A stretch of 64,000 bases of DNA from Desulfobacteraceae bacterium (lineage in GTDB: Bacteria > Desulfobacterota > Desulfobacteria > Desulfobacterales > Desulfosarcinaceae), in NCBI GenBank assembly GCA_003599575.1, contig QZKV01000119.1, forward strand, positions 1 to 64,000, read 5' to 3'. The translations under genes and the position numbers were made by a program. Below, in pieces: positions 43,756 through 53,399 of this stretch. The number at the start of each line of letters is the position of its first letter. The stretch's first letter is position 1. Under the pieces are notes generated by a model. The model made no database searches. It was not told the origin of the DNA and saw only the letters and a program-made list of their open reading frames with translations.

Positions 43756-43771
43756 CGGCATACTCTTTGCT
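43756..43771 (+). promoter_or_regulatory. Sigma-54 promoter of cooS
   Basis: CGGCAT-N5-TTGCT, GG at 43757-43758 and GC at 43769-43770; -12 element 54 bases upstream of the cooS ATG. Confidence 0.78.
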
Positions 43772-43823
43772 GTTTGAATCATCCAAATCGCATTTCGAAA
43801 TTATTCCTGCAAGGAGCCAAATA

Positions 43824-45851
43824 ATGGACAAGGAAGAAAAAGCGAGTGTGAAGGAAAGAAAATTGGCCGACCCCATCCAGGCATCCATCGATGCAGCCAC
43901 CCAGGAAATGATCCGGCATGCCCAGAATCTAGGGATCGAAACCATTTTCGACCGCGCCGAAAACATGAAGCCGTGCAATATCGGGGTGCAGGGGACCTGC
44001 TGCAAAAACTGCGGCATGGGTCCTTGCCGGCTCCCTCTCCCGAAGAGCGGCATAGAAGGTCCGGACGAACGCAAAGGTTTATGCGGCGCATCGGCCAACA
44101 CCATCGCGGCGCGCAACTTTATCCGCATGATCGCCGGCGGCGCCGCGGCGCACTCGGACCACGGCAGATGCGTGGCCGAAGTGTTTTTATCAGCGGCGAT
44201 GAAGGAAACGGATGCCTATCGGATCAAAGATGTGCAGAAGCTTCTGACCGTCGCCGCAGCGCTGGAGGTGGCCACCACGGTGGAGGAAAACGGTCGGACG
44301 CTTGATCGTGACGTGGATGAAATCGCACGCGAAGTCGCGCAAAAAGCCATCAACGAGTGGGGCAAATCCAGCGGCGAGCTGCTCTATCTGAAACGGGCGC
44401 CCGAGGCGCTGTACACGAAATGGAAGAATCAGGGCGTGCTGCCCAGGAACATCGATCGGGAAATTGTCGAGATCATGCACCGCACGCATATCGGTGTGGA
44501 CCAGGACTACAAGAATCTGATGAAACAGGGCACCCGCGCCGCGATTGCCGACGGCTGGGGTGGCTCCATGCTGGCAACGGACCTGCAGGATGTTCTTTTC
44601 GGAACCCCCTACCCGGTCCAATCCGAAGCCAATCTCGGCGTCTTGAAAAAGGATTGTGTCAATCTGGTGATTCACGGGCACGAGCCGGTGCTTTCGGAGA
44701 TGATCGTAGCCGTGGCGCAGACCAGGGCGATGGAAGAATACGCGAAATCCAAGGGCGCCCGGGGTATACAGCTTTCCGGGATCTGCTGCACGGCCAACGA
44801 AATACTCCAGCGCCACGGGGTGCCGCTGTGCGGCACCTTCTTACAGCAGGAACTGGCCATCATCACCGGTGCCTGTGATGCCATGGTGGTGGATATCCAG
44901 TGCATCATGCAGAACATCGCCAATGTGGCCAAATGCTTCCACACCAAGCTGATCACCACCCATCCGATCGCCAAAATGGAGCAGGACAATGTCATCCACA
45001 TTGAATTCGACGAACACCACGCCATGGAAGATGCCGAACGGATCGTGCGGCTGGCCATCGACAATTTTACGAACCGCAAGGCGGAAGTGATGATTCCGCG
45101 CCACAAGAATGTGCAGATTGCGGGCTTCGGCGTGGAATCGATTCAGTACCATCTGGGCGGGACCTTTCGCGGGTCCTATTACACGCTCAATGACAACATC
45201 ATCAACGGCCGCATCCGCGGTATCGCGGGGGTCGTGGGGTGCAACAATGCCCGCACGCGGCACAACGAAGGACACCTTGAGGTGGTCAAGGAACTCATCA
45301 AAAACGATGTGCTCGTGCTCACCACCGGGTGCAACGGCATCGCCTGCGCCATGGCAGGGCTTTTGACGCCGGAATCGGCTGCCGTGATGTGCGGTCCAGG
45401 CCTGGCGGAAGTGTGCGAGACGGTCGGCATCCCGCCGGTGCTGCACATGGGTTCCTGTGTGGACAACAGCCGCATCCTTCTGGCGGCGACCGAGGTGGTC
45501 AAGGCCGGCGGTCTGGGCAAGGACATCAGCGACCTGCCGGTGGCCGGCAGCGCGCCGGAATGGATGAGCGAAAAAGCCATCAGCATCGGCCACTATTTCG
45601 TCGCCTCGGGGGTCTATACGGTTTTCGGCGTGACCCTGCCCGTTTCGGGCGCACCGGCGTTCCGGCAGTATTTATTTAAGGATCTTGAAAAGCTGTACGG
45701 CGGCATGTGGGATCTGGAGGCGGACCCCGTTCTGCACGCCCGCAAGATGATCGCGCAAATTGACCGCAAACGCAAAGAGCTGGGCATCGATCGATCCAGA
45801 GAAAGGGTGTTGACCGACATGGCGGATCGCCGGGAGCTGCAGGCCGGATAG
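43824..45851 (+). CDS. cooS: Ni-dependent carbon monoxide dehydrogenase catalytic subunit (CooS)
   Basis: 675 residues from ATG 43824 with AAGGAG 7 bases upstream. N-terminal cysteines PCNIGVQGTCCKNCGMGPCR serve the D and B clusters; C-cluster ligands are visible in HGHEP, GICCTANEI, DIQCIMQN, GCNNARTRHNEGHLE, TTGCNGIACAMAG and GSCVDNSR. It oxidises CO to CO2 or the reverse in the cytoplasm. No acetyl-CoA synthase, CooF or classical CooC is encoded beside it, so it is a stand-alone CooS; the nearby MinD-ferredoxin ATPases could assist cofactor assembly, but this is inference. Preceded by a sigma-54 promoter. Confidence 0.96.
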   Translation: MDKEEKASVKERKLADPIQASIDAATQEMIRHAQNLGIETIFDRAENMKPCNIGVQGTCCKNCGMGPCRLPLPKSGIEGPDERKGLCGASANTIAARNFIRMIAGGAAAHSDHGRCVAEVFLSAAMKETDAYRIKDVQKLLTVAAALEVATTVEENGRTLDRDVDEIAREVAQKAINEWGKSSGELLYLKRAPEALYTKWKNQGVLPRNIDREIVEIMHRTHIGVDQDYKNLMKQGTRAAIADGWGGSMLATDLQDVLFGTPYPVQSEANLGVLKKDCVNLVIHGHEPVLSEMIVAVAQTRAMEEYAKSKGARGIQLSGICCTANEILQRHGVPLCGTFLQQELAIITGACDAMVVDIQCIMQNIANVAKCFHTKLITTHPIAKMEQDNVIHIEFDEHHAMEDAERIVRLAIDNFTNRKAEVMIPRHKNVQIAGFGVESIQYHLGGTFRGSYYTLNDNIINGRIRGIAGVVGCNNARTRHNEGHLEVVKELIKNDVLVLTTGCNGIACAMAGLLTPESAAVMCGPGLAEVCETVGIPPVLHMGSCVDNSRILLAATEVVKAGGLGKDISDLPVAGSAPEWMSEKAISIGHYFVASGVYTVFGVTLPVSGAPAFRQYLFKDLEKLYGGMWDLEADPVLHARKMIAQIDRKRKELGIDRSRERVLTDMADRRELQAG

Positions 45852-49231: not shown

Positions 49232-49603
49232 TCAATCTCCGCTCACCGGCATCTGAGGGCGCCGGCGTCCTGACCGGCCCGGCATCGCAAAGATATCATC
49301 ATCGATGCCGCCGCGCAACCAGGCCTCAATGATTTCGTTCACATCGCCTGCCACGTAGTCGATGACCTGGAAGCCATAAGCCGCCAGAATGGATGCCAAG
49401 GGCTGGGAAATGGCACCGCAGACCAGGATGTTGACGCCCCATTCGACCAAGCATAGCACTTTTCGTACAGGCGCCTCTTCATTGAATGCGACCAATCGCC
49501 GGACCAGCCGGTCATCGGCATCCTTCTCCACGATAAGGGCCTGCCGGGCTGTATCGAAGAGCGGTGCGATACGGTTGTTCCAGGTCGCGAAAGCCGCTTT
49601 CAT
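49232..49603 (-). CDS. NifX/MTH1175-family protein
   Basis: 123 residues: MKAAFATWNNRIAPLFDTARQ, GVNILVCGAISQPLASILAAYGF, then DVNEIIEAWLRGG and a basic tail. Closest in-window relative is the NifX part of the fusion at 42524-43120. ATG overlaps the stop of the upstream gene (ATGA), so the two are translationally coupled. Confidence 0.85.
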   Translation of the reverse strand: MKAAFATWNNRIAPLFDTARQALIVEKDADDRLVRRLVAFNEEAPVRKVLCLVEWGVNILVCGAISQPLASILAAYGFQVIDYVAGDVNEIIEAWLRGGIDDDIFAMPGRSGRRRPQMPVSGD

Positions 49604-49962
49604 TTAACTCTTTTCAGTTGACGGCGGGCGGCGCGGCATTGTTCGAGTTCCTTGATCTGTTGCTCCAAATCCCGGCATTCGAGACGAAAGCAGCGCACAT
49701 CCCCGCGTTTGCCGGGATCGATGTATTCGGCGAAGTAGTGAAAAATCGTTTGATCGGTCACGGATGCCAGCTCGAAAAGCAAGCCGCCCAAACGGGTGGC
49801 GGTACGATAGTAGTCAGCCACATCGAGTGGACGGGCATTGATATCCTGCACCATGCGTTTGAGCGCCTGGTAGGTATCGGCCTGCCGGAGGATGGCCAGC
49901 TCGGATCCCAGAAGGTTTTCCAGCCTTCTTTGCTTCAACTCTTCAAGCGTGAACCGATCCAT
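49600..49962 (-). CDS. Hypothetical helical protein coupled to a NifX-like gene
   Basis: 120 residues, mostly predicted helix with a C-terminal coiled coil (CRDLEQQIKELEQCRAARRQL). Three cysteines only, no recognised family. Starts the set hypothetical-nifX-arginine decarboxylase; coupling through the 4-base overlap suggests it works with the NifX-like protein. Confidence 0.65.
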   Translation of the reverse strand: MDRFTLEELKQRRLENLLGSELAILRQADTYQALKRMVQDINARPLDVADYYRTATRLGGLLFELASVTDQTIFHYFAEYIDPGKRGDVRCFRLECRDLEQQIKELEQCRAARRQLKRVK

Positions 49963-50418: not shown

Positions 50419-51738
50419 CTACATTTCCGTCTCCGGGTGAAAGACATTCACCTCTTTGAGGTCGTCTCGCAAATATTCACGCTCTTTGGGCCCTAGTATG
50501 CCCAGGGAAAGACAAATCAACGTCCACAGGTGCACCACGCCATAGCCCCCGCCGTAATGCTCGTTCAACTCATGAATCTGCGCATGGCAGTTGTGACAGC
50601 CCGCAATACAATAATCAGCCCGGGTGGCCTGGATCTGTTGATCCTTCAAGCGGCCGTATTCAAGCCGGGCTTCTTTGTATCCCGACTGCAGAAACCCCCC
50701 GCCGCCGCCGCAGCAGAAGTTATTGGAGCGGTTGGGGTGCATGTCGATGAAGTTTTCTTCTCCCACCACCGATTTGACCACGAAGCGCAGGTCCTCGGCA
50801 ATGGGATCGCCGTAGCTTTTGCGCACGATCTGACATGGGTCCTGGACCGTGAACTTGATTTTAAGGTCCTTGTTCCATTCCGCATTGACCTTGAGTTTGC
50901 CTTCCCTGATCCAGCGGGCGTAATATTCGTATATATTCTTCACCTGGAAGCTGTGCGGGATGTTGAACTTTTTCAGTCCTGCCAGGACTGAGAAGGTCAC
51001 GTGCCCTCACTCGGTGTTGAGAAAGATCTTGCAGCCCAGGTCCTCCGCCTGTTTGGCCGCGGTGCTGGTGATCTGCTTCCAGGCTTCGTCGTCGGCCAGA
51101 AACATGCAGTAGTTCTCTCCGCCCCAGCCCTTGGAGCCATAGGTCCAGTCGGCGCCCGCCAGATGCAGTATCTTCCACAGCGGCACCATTTCATCGGGTT
51201 CGGTGACCGGCTCGCGCGAGTTCTGGTTCAGGAAGAACTCCGCAGCCTGCTTGTCGATGGGGGCTTGCATCTCGGCGAACTCGGGCTGGGCTTCCTGGTA
51301 TTCGGAAAGGACATCTTCCACCACGAATTTGAAATCCTCGGGATCGGTGCCCATGGCGCTGCAGCTTTCGTTGCGCAGGGCCATGTCGCAGGAACCCAGA
51401 ATGCCCTTGGGCCTTTCCTGGCGGGGCCACAAAGCGCGGGCATTGTAGACCAGCTGCGGGATGTTGATCTGCATGGGACAGACGTAAACGCAACGCTGGC
51501 ACATGGAACACATCCATACCCAGTTGGACTTTCTGATCTCTTCATCCATGCCCAGGGCGGCCATACGCAGAAATTTGCGCGGGTCCATATTTTCCAGCCC
51601 TGTGGCCGGACACCCGGACGAACAGGCGCCGCAGGTCAGGCACAGGTTCAGGTTGCCGCCCTCGGGCAGCAAGGACTTGACCTTGTCAAGGAACGTCTGC
51701 CGCTTCAATCCGCCTAACCTGATGGGTTGATCGGTCAT
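50419..51738 (-). CDS. HdrD-like iron-sulfur oxidoreductase, selenoprotein (UGA = Sec244)
   Basis: One frame of 439 residues if the TGA at 51007-51009 is selenocysteine; both halves are in the same frame and together form a standard HdrC+CCG protein. Two 4Fe-4S motifs (C33, C36, C39, C43; C77, C80, C83, C87) are followed by the CCG-type domain: FLNTE-U-GH, DPCQIV, FCCGGGGGF and CIAGCHNCHAQ. TmcB in this window has CECGH at the position of E-U-GH, so the stop replaces a cluster-ligand cysteine. A SECIS-like hairpin starts 9 bases after the TGA. Cytoplasmic disulfide or thiol redox enzyme. Preceded by a sigma-54 promoter; no partner gene follows. Confidence 0.88.
50967..50997 (-). promoter_or_regulatory. 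Candidate bacterial SECIS element of the HdrD-like gene
   Basis: On the minus strand an 8-bp perfect stem (TCAGTCCT / AGGACTGA) with loop GGC is extended by further pairs interrupted by two mismatches. The apical loop lies 24-26 bases after the TGA, within the bacterial SECIS range. Found by eye. Confidence 0.6.
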
Positions 51739-51816: not shown

Positions 51817-51833
51817 AGCATTCAGCATGCCAA
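51817..51833 (-). promoter_or_regulatory. Sigma-54 promoter of the HdrD-like selenoprotein gene
   Basis: Minus-strand TTGGCAT-N5-ATGCT with ten bases between GG and GC; the -12 element is 80 bases from the ATG at 51738. Nothing else is recognised in the 299-base gap to the activator gene end. Confidence 0.62.
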
Positions 51834-52037: not shown

Positions 52038-53399
52038 TTATCGTCGTCTGCCGCGGCCGTCGGTATCGGGTACTTCGATCCCATGGGCGTTGATCTTGCG
52101 ATACAGGGTGGCGACGTCGATGCCGAGATCTCTGGCGGCCATCTTGCGGTTGCCCCTGTGATGGTGCAGGGTTTGGGTGATCACCTGCTTTTCAAGGTTG
52201 CGCAGGCTCATCGGCCCGAGGTTTTCTCCGGCCGCTGCAATTTGCGGGCGAAACTCGGGCGGCAGATGAGCGAGGGTGATCACACTGTTCCGGCACAGCA
52301 CAAAAGCCTGCTCGATGATATTCTCCAGTTCGCGGACATTGCCCGGAAAATCGTAAAACATCAGGCGCGCGACCACGTCGTCGGAGACACCGGCGATATC
52401 CTTGCCTTGCAGGCGGTTGAATTTGCGGACCAGGTGGTCGATCAGCAAGGGGATATCTTCGCGCCGTTCCTTCAGACTGGGTAAAACCATATGGATCACG
52501 CGAATACGATAGTAAAGATCCTGGCGGAACTGTCCGCCGCGCACCAGATCGGCCAGATTCCGGTTGGTGGCGGCCACCACGCGGATATCCACCGGCCTTG
52601 AACGCACCGCGCCCAACGGCTCGATGGTGTGATCCTGAAGCACGCGCAGCAATCGCGTCTGCATCAGCGGCGATATATCGCCGATCTCATCCAGGAAGAT
52701 GGTGCCGCCGTCGGCCAGTTCGAAACGGCCGGGCTTGTCCCGTTTGGCATCGGTGAATGCCCCGGCCTTGTGTCCGAACAGTTCGCTTTCCAGAAGGGTA
52801 TCCGGCAAGGCCGCGCAATTGACCGCCACAAAGCGTTTGTCGCGGCGCGGCGATAAATTGTGAATGGCCCGCGCGAACAATTCCTTGCCCGTTCCGCTGG
52901 CGCCTTCGATCAGCACCGTGCTGCTGCTTTCGGCAATTTGCGGCACTATTTTGAAGACCTGCATCATGGCGCTGCTGCGTCCGACAATATCCTCAAAGGT
53001 ATAGCGGCTCTCCAGTTCCTTCTGCAGTTGCTCGATCCGGCTGAGATCCTGAAACGTCTCGACCCCGCCGATGATCGTGCCTTGTTTATTTTTCAGGATC
53101 GCTGTCGAGATGCGGATCGGCACCCGAAGGCCCTGGTTGTTGACGATGTGCGCCATGGCGTTGACCACCGGCCGGCCTGTTTCGAAGGTCTGTCTCAGGG
53201 CGCAACCCTTTTCGCAGATGCTTGCGTGAAACACATCGCAGCAGGCATTGCCGAGGGCCTCGCGGCGGGAAATGCCGGTGATGCGTTCGGCCGCCCGATT
53301 GAAGGCCGTGATGCGCCAATCCGGCCCCACGGTAAAAACACCCTCGTTGATGGAGTCGAGAATGACATCGCGCTCCTGTTCTTCTTTCAATGTGCTCAT
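52038..53399 (-). CDS. PAS-domain sigma-54-dependent activator with GAFTDA loop
   Basis: 453 residues. PAS domain with cysteines 53, 54, 62 and 66 ([14 protein letters not shown]), the same spacing as in the activator at 23175. AAA+ core with Walker A GASGTGKE (166-173), GAFTDA (213-218), Walker [11 protein letters not shown] and a Fis-type C-terminus ([21 protein letters not shown]). Divergent from the mbl operon, with a long inverted repeat and a sigma-54 promoter in between, so it most likely activates that operon. Confidence 0.93.

Follow-up and report, generated by a model that had tools for sequence, protein, structure and literature searches.

A UGA codon very probably read as selenocysteine in an HdrD-like iron-sulfur protein of a Desulfobacteraceae bacterium

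Locus and reading frame

The window analysed here, a stretch of 64,000 nucleotides of contig QZKV01000119.1 from a Desulfobacteraceae bacterium, carries on its minus strand a gene for a fusion of an HdrC-like and an HdrB-like part (Table 1). The frame from 51738 down to 50419 contains a single TGA (51009–51007) and is otherwise open. Standard ORF calling splits the gene in two, as a previous reading made from the sequence only (hereafter the sequence-only reading) had anticipated, and a GTG at 51000, three codons past the UGA, is a possible start of the second open reading frame. Taken on its own, continuity of the frame is weak evidence for readthrough here, because the window has 35 TGAs that lie between open stretches of at least 80 codons each. 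The case for a putative selenocysteine (Sec) at this codon draws on homology, not on the open frame.

Table 1 Features of the locus, in window positions
Feature	Position	Strand	Remark
Gene for an HdrC-HdrB fusion of 439 aa with a putative Sec at the UGA	50419..51738	-	
UGA codon, probable Sec244	51007..51009	-	Basis: TGA in 149/174 homologues, Cys codon in 25/174
SECIS-like hairpin, 8-bp stem	50973..50991	-	First stem base after 15 nt from UGA
HdrC-like 2x[4Fe-4S] domain, residues 30-92	51463..51651	-	Pfam Fer4_8; eight Cys in 115/115 rows
Degenerate first CCG domain, about residues 165-260	50959..51246	-	Sole ligand-position Cys/Sec is 244
Intact CCG domain, residues 297-388	50575..50850	-	Pfam CCG; C302, C342, C343, C381, C384
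His246 of UGH motif	51001..51003	-	Aligned with EtfD His583, a noncubane cluster ligand
Sigma-54 -24/-12-like site TGGCATGCTGAATGCT	51817..51832	-	94 nt 5' of ATG
Sigma-54-dependent activator (PAS, AAA, HTH_8)	52038..53399	-	Directly upstream of Sec gene

Homologues and the Sec/Cys distribution

The own genome (6.45 Mb) contains five more genes of the family, which are 75, 67, 66, 58 and 36% identical to the window copy and have one in-frame TGA each; the aligned codon is TGA in all six copies. TGA was likewise found in 80 of 80 close relatives, the best 80 of 510 coding stretches from a search of genome contigs. The cultured species Desulfatitalea alkaliphila, Desulfobacter vibrioformis and Desulfonema magnum are among the carriers of the gene. 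Among 247 sampled genomes of the phylum, 62 feature a match at E ≤ 1e-60; per-genome copy numbers in this sample are lower bounds, with at most seven candidates scored per genome.

A joint set of 174 genes, one per locus, comprises the six own copies, the 80 close loci (best 80 of 510) and 88 genes from the sampled genomes; it omits duplicate loci of the own genome (L095, L103–L107) and five distant Cys relatives scoring below 195 bits (L007, L008, L011 and the second genes of L037 and L064). The site is TGA in 149 of these genes and TGC or TGT in 25. Homologues with neither Sec nor Cys at the site, named in the sequence-only reading as evidence against Sec, amount to 0 of 174.

The motif UGH is present in all 149 Sec forms. 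Not every Cys form has the His: CGG replaces (U/C)GH in 12 of the 25. These PD-C-GG forms (L180, L187, L188, L191, L194, L195 and L197–L202) are without the presumed cluster-ligating His. An extra stop occurs in the aligned stretch of three genes, namely L065 (TAG), L137 and the Cys form L195, the last two at the very end. The TAG of L065 (L065:6685-6687, CP070697.1) is in frame, 15 codons 5' of the UGA, at a place where the window copy has Lys; pyrrolysine, a mutation or an error are possible explanations.

On a tree of 115 rows (six own copies, 16 of the 80 close loci, the 88 sampled genes and the five distant Cys relatives), the Sec/Cys label requires 11 changes, and the starred branches by themselves force 11; the tree was built with a quick method, and long branches were flagged at DsrK, TmcB and L037c. 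Sec and Cys appear to substitute for each other in the evolution of the family. In five sampled genomes (G036, G070, G080, G132 and G172), a Sec copy coexists with a close Cys copy, which provides natural Cys forms as ready-made controls.

Decoding of the UGA codon

Genes for tRNA-Sec (selC, 73.4 bits), SelA, SelB and SelD are present in the own genome, each above its cut-off. SelD of this genome has an in-frame TGA itself (G000:C20:25980-26906). SelB exceeds the cut-off in 61 of the 62 family-bearing genomes, Cys-only ones included, so that its presence does not distinguish Sec genomes from Cys genomes. No SelB above the cut-off was found in G033, a Sec-bearing genome that is 94% complete. 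The family NF045663 of NCBIfam ('diclust_near_Sec') was considered as a partner and ruled out in the own genome, where no match exceeded the cut-off.

A long hairpin had been claimed 9 bases after the UGA. The hairpin is present, with the stem UCAGUCCU/AGGACUGA, but its 8 bp start after 15 nt and not after 9. The spacing from the UGA to the loop is 23 nt and the loop begins with G, both of which match the bacterial SECIS pattern. By itself the single sequence does not fold convincingly (z −1.10, with 29 of 200 shuffles doing equally well), and the case for the hairpin is for this reason based on comparison.

Across 86 genes, mean folding energy was compared at 201 gene positions and is lowest for the 39-nt stretch that begins with the UGA (−13.7, with a mean over all positions of −7.1 and a standard deviation of 2.4); the runner-up (−12.8) is located 288 nt further downstream. 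In 69 distinct rows of 85 genes, counted with L006 set aside due to its differently arranged stem, 96.0% of the stem cells pair. Pairing was 59.1 ± 2.0% (maximum 65.6%) when codons were redrawn for the same protein and 91.0 ± 0.7% (maximum 93.3%) when synonymous codons were permuted within columns. The hairpin is kept beyond the constraint of the protein sequence.

For one stem pair, 26 rows have T-A and 38 have G-C, other pairs switch between T-A and G-C or between G-C and A-T, and the two outer pairs are broken in 10 and 7 rows; the changes are partly due to Leu/Arg changes in the protein, and the rows are related, so that the counts are not independent events. The folding energy downstream of the codon is −10.9 ± 1.8 kcal/mol for Sec forms and −5.2 ± 2.6 kcal/mol for Cys forms, with an overlap between some Cys forms (−8.5 to −9.2) and some Sec forms (just −5.9 to −7.7). 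A second subfamily, LLPE-U-GH (31 distinct sequences), features a different stem; of its 155 cells (five pairs), 134 form in the fixed register and 20 to 86 when one side is slid by 1–2 places. SECIS prediction, which had been suggested as a check, found support in the comparative conservation of the hairpin but not in Rfam, which yielded no match at the gathering threshold anywhere in the window.

Judged from these comparisons, the UGA carries all marks of ordinary bacterial Sec decoding. We conclude that the UGA at 51007–51009 is very probably read as selenocysteine in an HdrD-like Fe-S protein, in agreement with the sequence-only reading, which had placed a Sec between two same-frame halves of one protein. 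Two separate genes or a sequencing error, with the UGA as a true stop and a second open reading frame starting from the GTG at 51000, would be in line with the position of this GTG three codons 3' of the UGA and with the split made by the ORF caller. This explanation is extremely improbable, however, as the UGA is shared by 149 of 174 genes, 25 Cys forms are unsplit and conservation of the hairpin goes with the UGA. For annotation, this concerns six copies in the own genome which standard ORF calling splits.

Domain architecture and position of the selenocysteine

Pfam detected one two-[4Fe-4S] domain (Fer4_8) and one CCG domain, which bears out the HdrC+CCG architecture postulated before. In an alignment with two-CCG proteins from the own genome (HdrB, GlcF-like and EtfD-like, labels assigned in this analysis), Sec244 corresponds to the first Cys of CxxC in a first CCG domain. 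In the TmcB of the window, which scores above its own NCBIfam cut-off, Sec244 is matched by the second Cys of CECGH, the motif to which the sequence-only reading had assigned it.

The other four ligand positions of the first CCG domain are Cys in 0 of 85 Sec rows and 0 of 30 Cys rows, where the positions near 174 and 206–208 depend on the alignment of distant sequences and the position of HdrB Cys10 was read from the GlcF-like protein, HdrB Cys10 itself being aligned onto Cys87. By this alignment, Sec would hold the sole remaining of five ligand positions in a degenerate domain. With the other four ligand Cys lost in all 115 rows, Sec is not a ligand of a canonical noncubane cluster with five Cys in its own domain. 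The second CCG domain has C302, C342 and C343 in all 115 rows, C381 in 114 of them (one gap) and C384 in 113 (one gap, one Asp).

HdrD proteins have two complete five-Cys CCG motifs. In the window protein the second motif is complete and the first has Cys or Sec at one of five ligand positions. The designation as an HdrD-like enzyme holds in the sense of an HdrC-HdrB fusion; strictly speaking, the protein is no HdrD, because just one CCG motif is complete. Two further Cys residues sit at non-ligand places relative to HdrB: Cys211 (window 51106–51108) is found in 56 of 115 rows and Cys236 (window 51031–51033) in 80 of 115. They could be partners of Sec or incidental.

A profile search of solved structures aligned U244-G-H246 with C581-P582-H583 of EtfD from Mycobacterium smegmatis (PDB 9ojn; residue numbers counted along the printed chain). 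According to the accessible text on this structure (PMC13083937), the noncubane cluster of EtfD is held by the five Cys of the second CCG domain and by His583 and is hence non-catalytic, a linear [3Fe-4S] cluster is held by Cys503, 538, 581 and 584, and in Hdr the heterodisulfide is cleaved by two noncubane clusters. As the EtfD residue aligned with His246 ligates the noncubane cluster, Sec244 would be next to this cluster and not among its five Cys. Judging by the alignment, Sec244 should be situated between two sites, that of the missing first cluster and that of the noncubane cluster preserved in the second CCG domain. The predicted structure is of moderate quality (pLDDT 72.9, pTM 0.78), and Foldseek with this model gave EtfD and six HdrB chains as top matches. 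The earlier proposal of a Sec at a noncubane cluster is retained as a possibility for the cluster of the second domain, beside which EtfD homology places the residue, and dropped for a five-Cys cluster of its own domain, where four Cys are lost. A role of selenium at the cluster is what we infer from this.

Sec244 could also act as a direct Fe ligand, with His246 completing the noncubane cluster of the second domain or holding a remnant cluster; selenium would then tune the potential and perform no substrate chemistry. The available EtfD description is compatible with such a role, as His583 is the sixth ligand of the cluster called non-catalytic and Cys581 is itself a cluster ligand (PMC13083937). 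U and H are invariant in 85 of 85 Sec rows, and Cys211 (48/85 Sec rows) and Cys236 (68/85) could be unorthodox ligands or partners. We nevertheless consider this ligand role unlikely. The remaining three positions corresponding to ligands of the linear EtfD cluster are not Cys, so that Sec alone cannot hold a linear cluster, Cys211 and Cys236 are absent from many rows, and the repeated exchange of Sec and Cys fits a redox-active residue at least equally well.

Gene neighbourhood

The −24/−12-like site upstream of the gene is also present in the seven nearest relatives (L013–L019). At least 9 of 11 positions match in 22 of 76 close loci, for which mononucleotide shuffles expect 1.3 and give at most 4. 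A sigma-54 activator with at least 65% identity was found near the gene in 9 of the 80 close loci.

Within the best 80 of 510 loci, 25 encode MetV or MetF on the same strand and no more than 6 kb away, an HdrA/HdrL-like gene is present in 33, among them all 25 with MetV or MetF, the gene order HdrL, Sec gene, MetV occurs in 13, and none of the seven counted neighbours is found in 19; these counts are lower bounds, just 34 of the 80 loci being longer than 13 kb, and were obtained with loose identity limits (from 25% for HdrA/HdrL). Beside the window copy there is neither hdrA nor metF, just the sigma-54 activator, and the HdrL-MetV-MetF cluster of the own genome (L205, G000:C3:46000-60000) contains no copy of the Sec gene. 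The paralogues on contigs C106, C85, C5 and C70 of the own genome are located at most 4 kb from HdrA/HdrL-like genes, while the paralogue on C17 adjoins a gene for a 949-aa protein (L103:4764-7613). This protein has an iron alcohol dehydrogenase domain at its C-terminus and an N-terminal part that weakly resembles aldehyde ferredoxin oxidoreductase.

A small protein encoded after the Sec gene (window 49600–49962; L064:7451-7990) gave no hit in Pfam or NCBIfam under the thresholds applied; relatives with at least 30% identity are found near the Sec gene in 18 of the 80 close loci. The catalytic subunit of a carbon monoxide dehydrogenase is encoded at window positions 43767–45851, and its relatives occur near the Sec gene on the same strand in L033, L036 and L058.

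Possible function

The HdrA/HdrL and MetV-MetF neighbours in the relatives suggest that the protein is an HdrBC-like module of an Hdr-type methylene-tetrahydrofolate reductase and of similar complexes. Such a module is plausible in view of pull-downs from Sporomusa, which, in the part of the study available, link HdrB, HdrA, MvhD and MetF (PMC9430772), with HdrB and HdrC as separate proteins.

In the reading that we prefer, and to which we give about an even chance, the protein replaces HdrBC in HdrA/HdrL bifurcating complexes, above all those with MetV-MetF, and Sec244 is redox-active beside one noncubane cluster. The protein would stand in for HdrBC in flavin-based bifurcation, with the methylene-tetrahydrofolate reductase MetV-MetF of sulfate reducers using the Wood-Ljungdahl pathway as its main partner. 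Electrons would pass from HdrA/HdrL via the two cubane clusters to the one noncubane cluster of the second CCG domain, which His246 may cap or border. At the site of the absent first cluster, Sec244 would act as the redox-active residue, turned towards the partner or towards a disulfide substrate. Ferredoxin:thioredoxin reductase, where a pair of cysteines acts next to one cluster, serves as an analogy for Sec244. Counting against this reading are the lack of hdrA and metF beside the window copy, the lack of the Sec gene in the HdrL-MetV-MetF cluster of the own genome and the 19 of 80 close loci without any of the counted neighbours.

The EtfD cluster being described as non-catalytic, a similar cap by His246 would make substrate chemistry less likely at the cluster of the window protein. 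In view of this interpretation by the EtfD authors, we weighted the role of Sec as an Fe ligand up and the preferred reading down. Rather doubtful is a scheme in which Sec works directly at the noncubane [4Fe-4S] cluster, either as an Fe ligand or as a substrate-bridging selenol, in a widespread replacement of HdrBC in bifurcating methylene-tetrahydrofolate reductase complexes of sulfate reducers, a replacement whose degenerate CCG domain has become a site of one cluster plus selenol. If true, a second catalytic cluster would have been reduced to a single Sec or Cys, leaving a heterodisulfide-reductase-type site with one cluster and a selenol.

A thiol-disulfide oxidoreductase of the sulfate pathway, acting like TmcB or DsrK on the DsrC trisulfide with Sec as the attacking selenol, appears improbable to us. 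The nearest named relatives, HmcF, TmcB and DsrK, all have ECGH and would suit this function, as would two statements in the accessible literature: an interaction with DsrC is predicted for a CCG domain resembling those of HdrB and TmcB (PMC10553843), and in Desulfobacterium autotrophicum the genes dsrABC come after hdrL1, which is related to the usual partner HdrL (PMC2702500). However, dsr genes account for 0 of 6 annotated neighbour clusters (of 22 listed), and the protein scores far under the cut-offs for HmcF, TmcB and DsrK. The placement of Sec beside a noncubane cluster and the link to HdrL and MetVF offer concrete tests of the role of selenium.

Comparison with known systems

TmcB, HmcF and DsrK are subunits of membrane complexes. 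They share the architecture of the window protein, have ECGH in a degenerate first CCG domain and keep the CCG Cys of the second domain, except for DsrK, which is without the last one; in place of the Sec they have Cys. The window protein reaches 155.5 bits against TmcB (NF045724, cut-off 735), 161.5 against HmcF (NF045711, cut-off 750) and 119.2 against DsrK (NF045796, cut-off 400).

EtfD of M. smegmatis resembles the window protein in having two [4Fe-4S] clusters followed by two CCG domains and a C-x-H at the same place. In contrast, it is described as a membrane protein whose first CCG domain still holds the linear [3Fe-4S] cluster, with Cys instead of Sec (PMC13083937). No paper on the noncubane cluster of DsrK by cryo-EM or on the noncubane cluster of HdrB with a CCG motif was found in the literature search. 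The HdrCBA-MvhD-MetVF complexes of Moorella and Sporomusa are comparable in that MetV and MetF are neighbours or partners of HdrA, whereas HdrB and HdrC are separate proteins and the word "selenocysteine" is absent from the main text (PMC9430772).

The gene is not new as a selenoprotein: family and UGH motif are already in print. An Fe-S oxidoreductase-like (GlpC) family with the motif UGH is listed in a review of 2026 (PMC13188914), where it stands among prokaryotic selenoproteins of largely uncharacterised function, and the same family had been described by 2006. As judged by its motif and domain type, the window gene, in which GH follows the probable Sec in an Fe-S oxidoreductase of the CCG type, is a new member of this known family, for which WP_174406253.1 is the listed example. 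The placement of Sec at the cluster, the number of Sec/Cys changes and the MetVF-HdrL link were not found in the published family descriptions searched. The known family has one Sec, the UGH motif, an occurrence in Deltaproteobacteria and hdrA and hydrogenase-subunit genes as neighbours, all in common with the present gene and its relatives. HdrD4 of D. autotrophicum HRM2, encoded by hdrD4 and listed as a selenoprotein in 2009, is likewise an HdrC-HdrB fusion that contains Sec and is without a transmembrane part, a likeness based on its description in the available text (PMC2702500).
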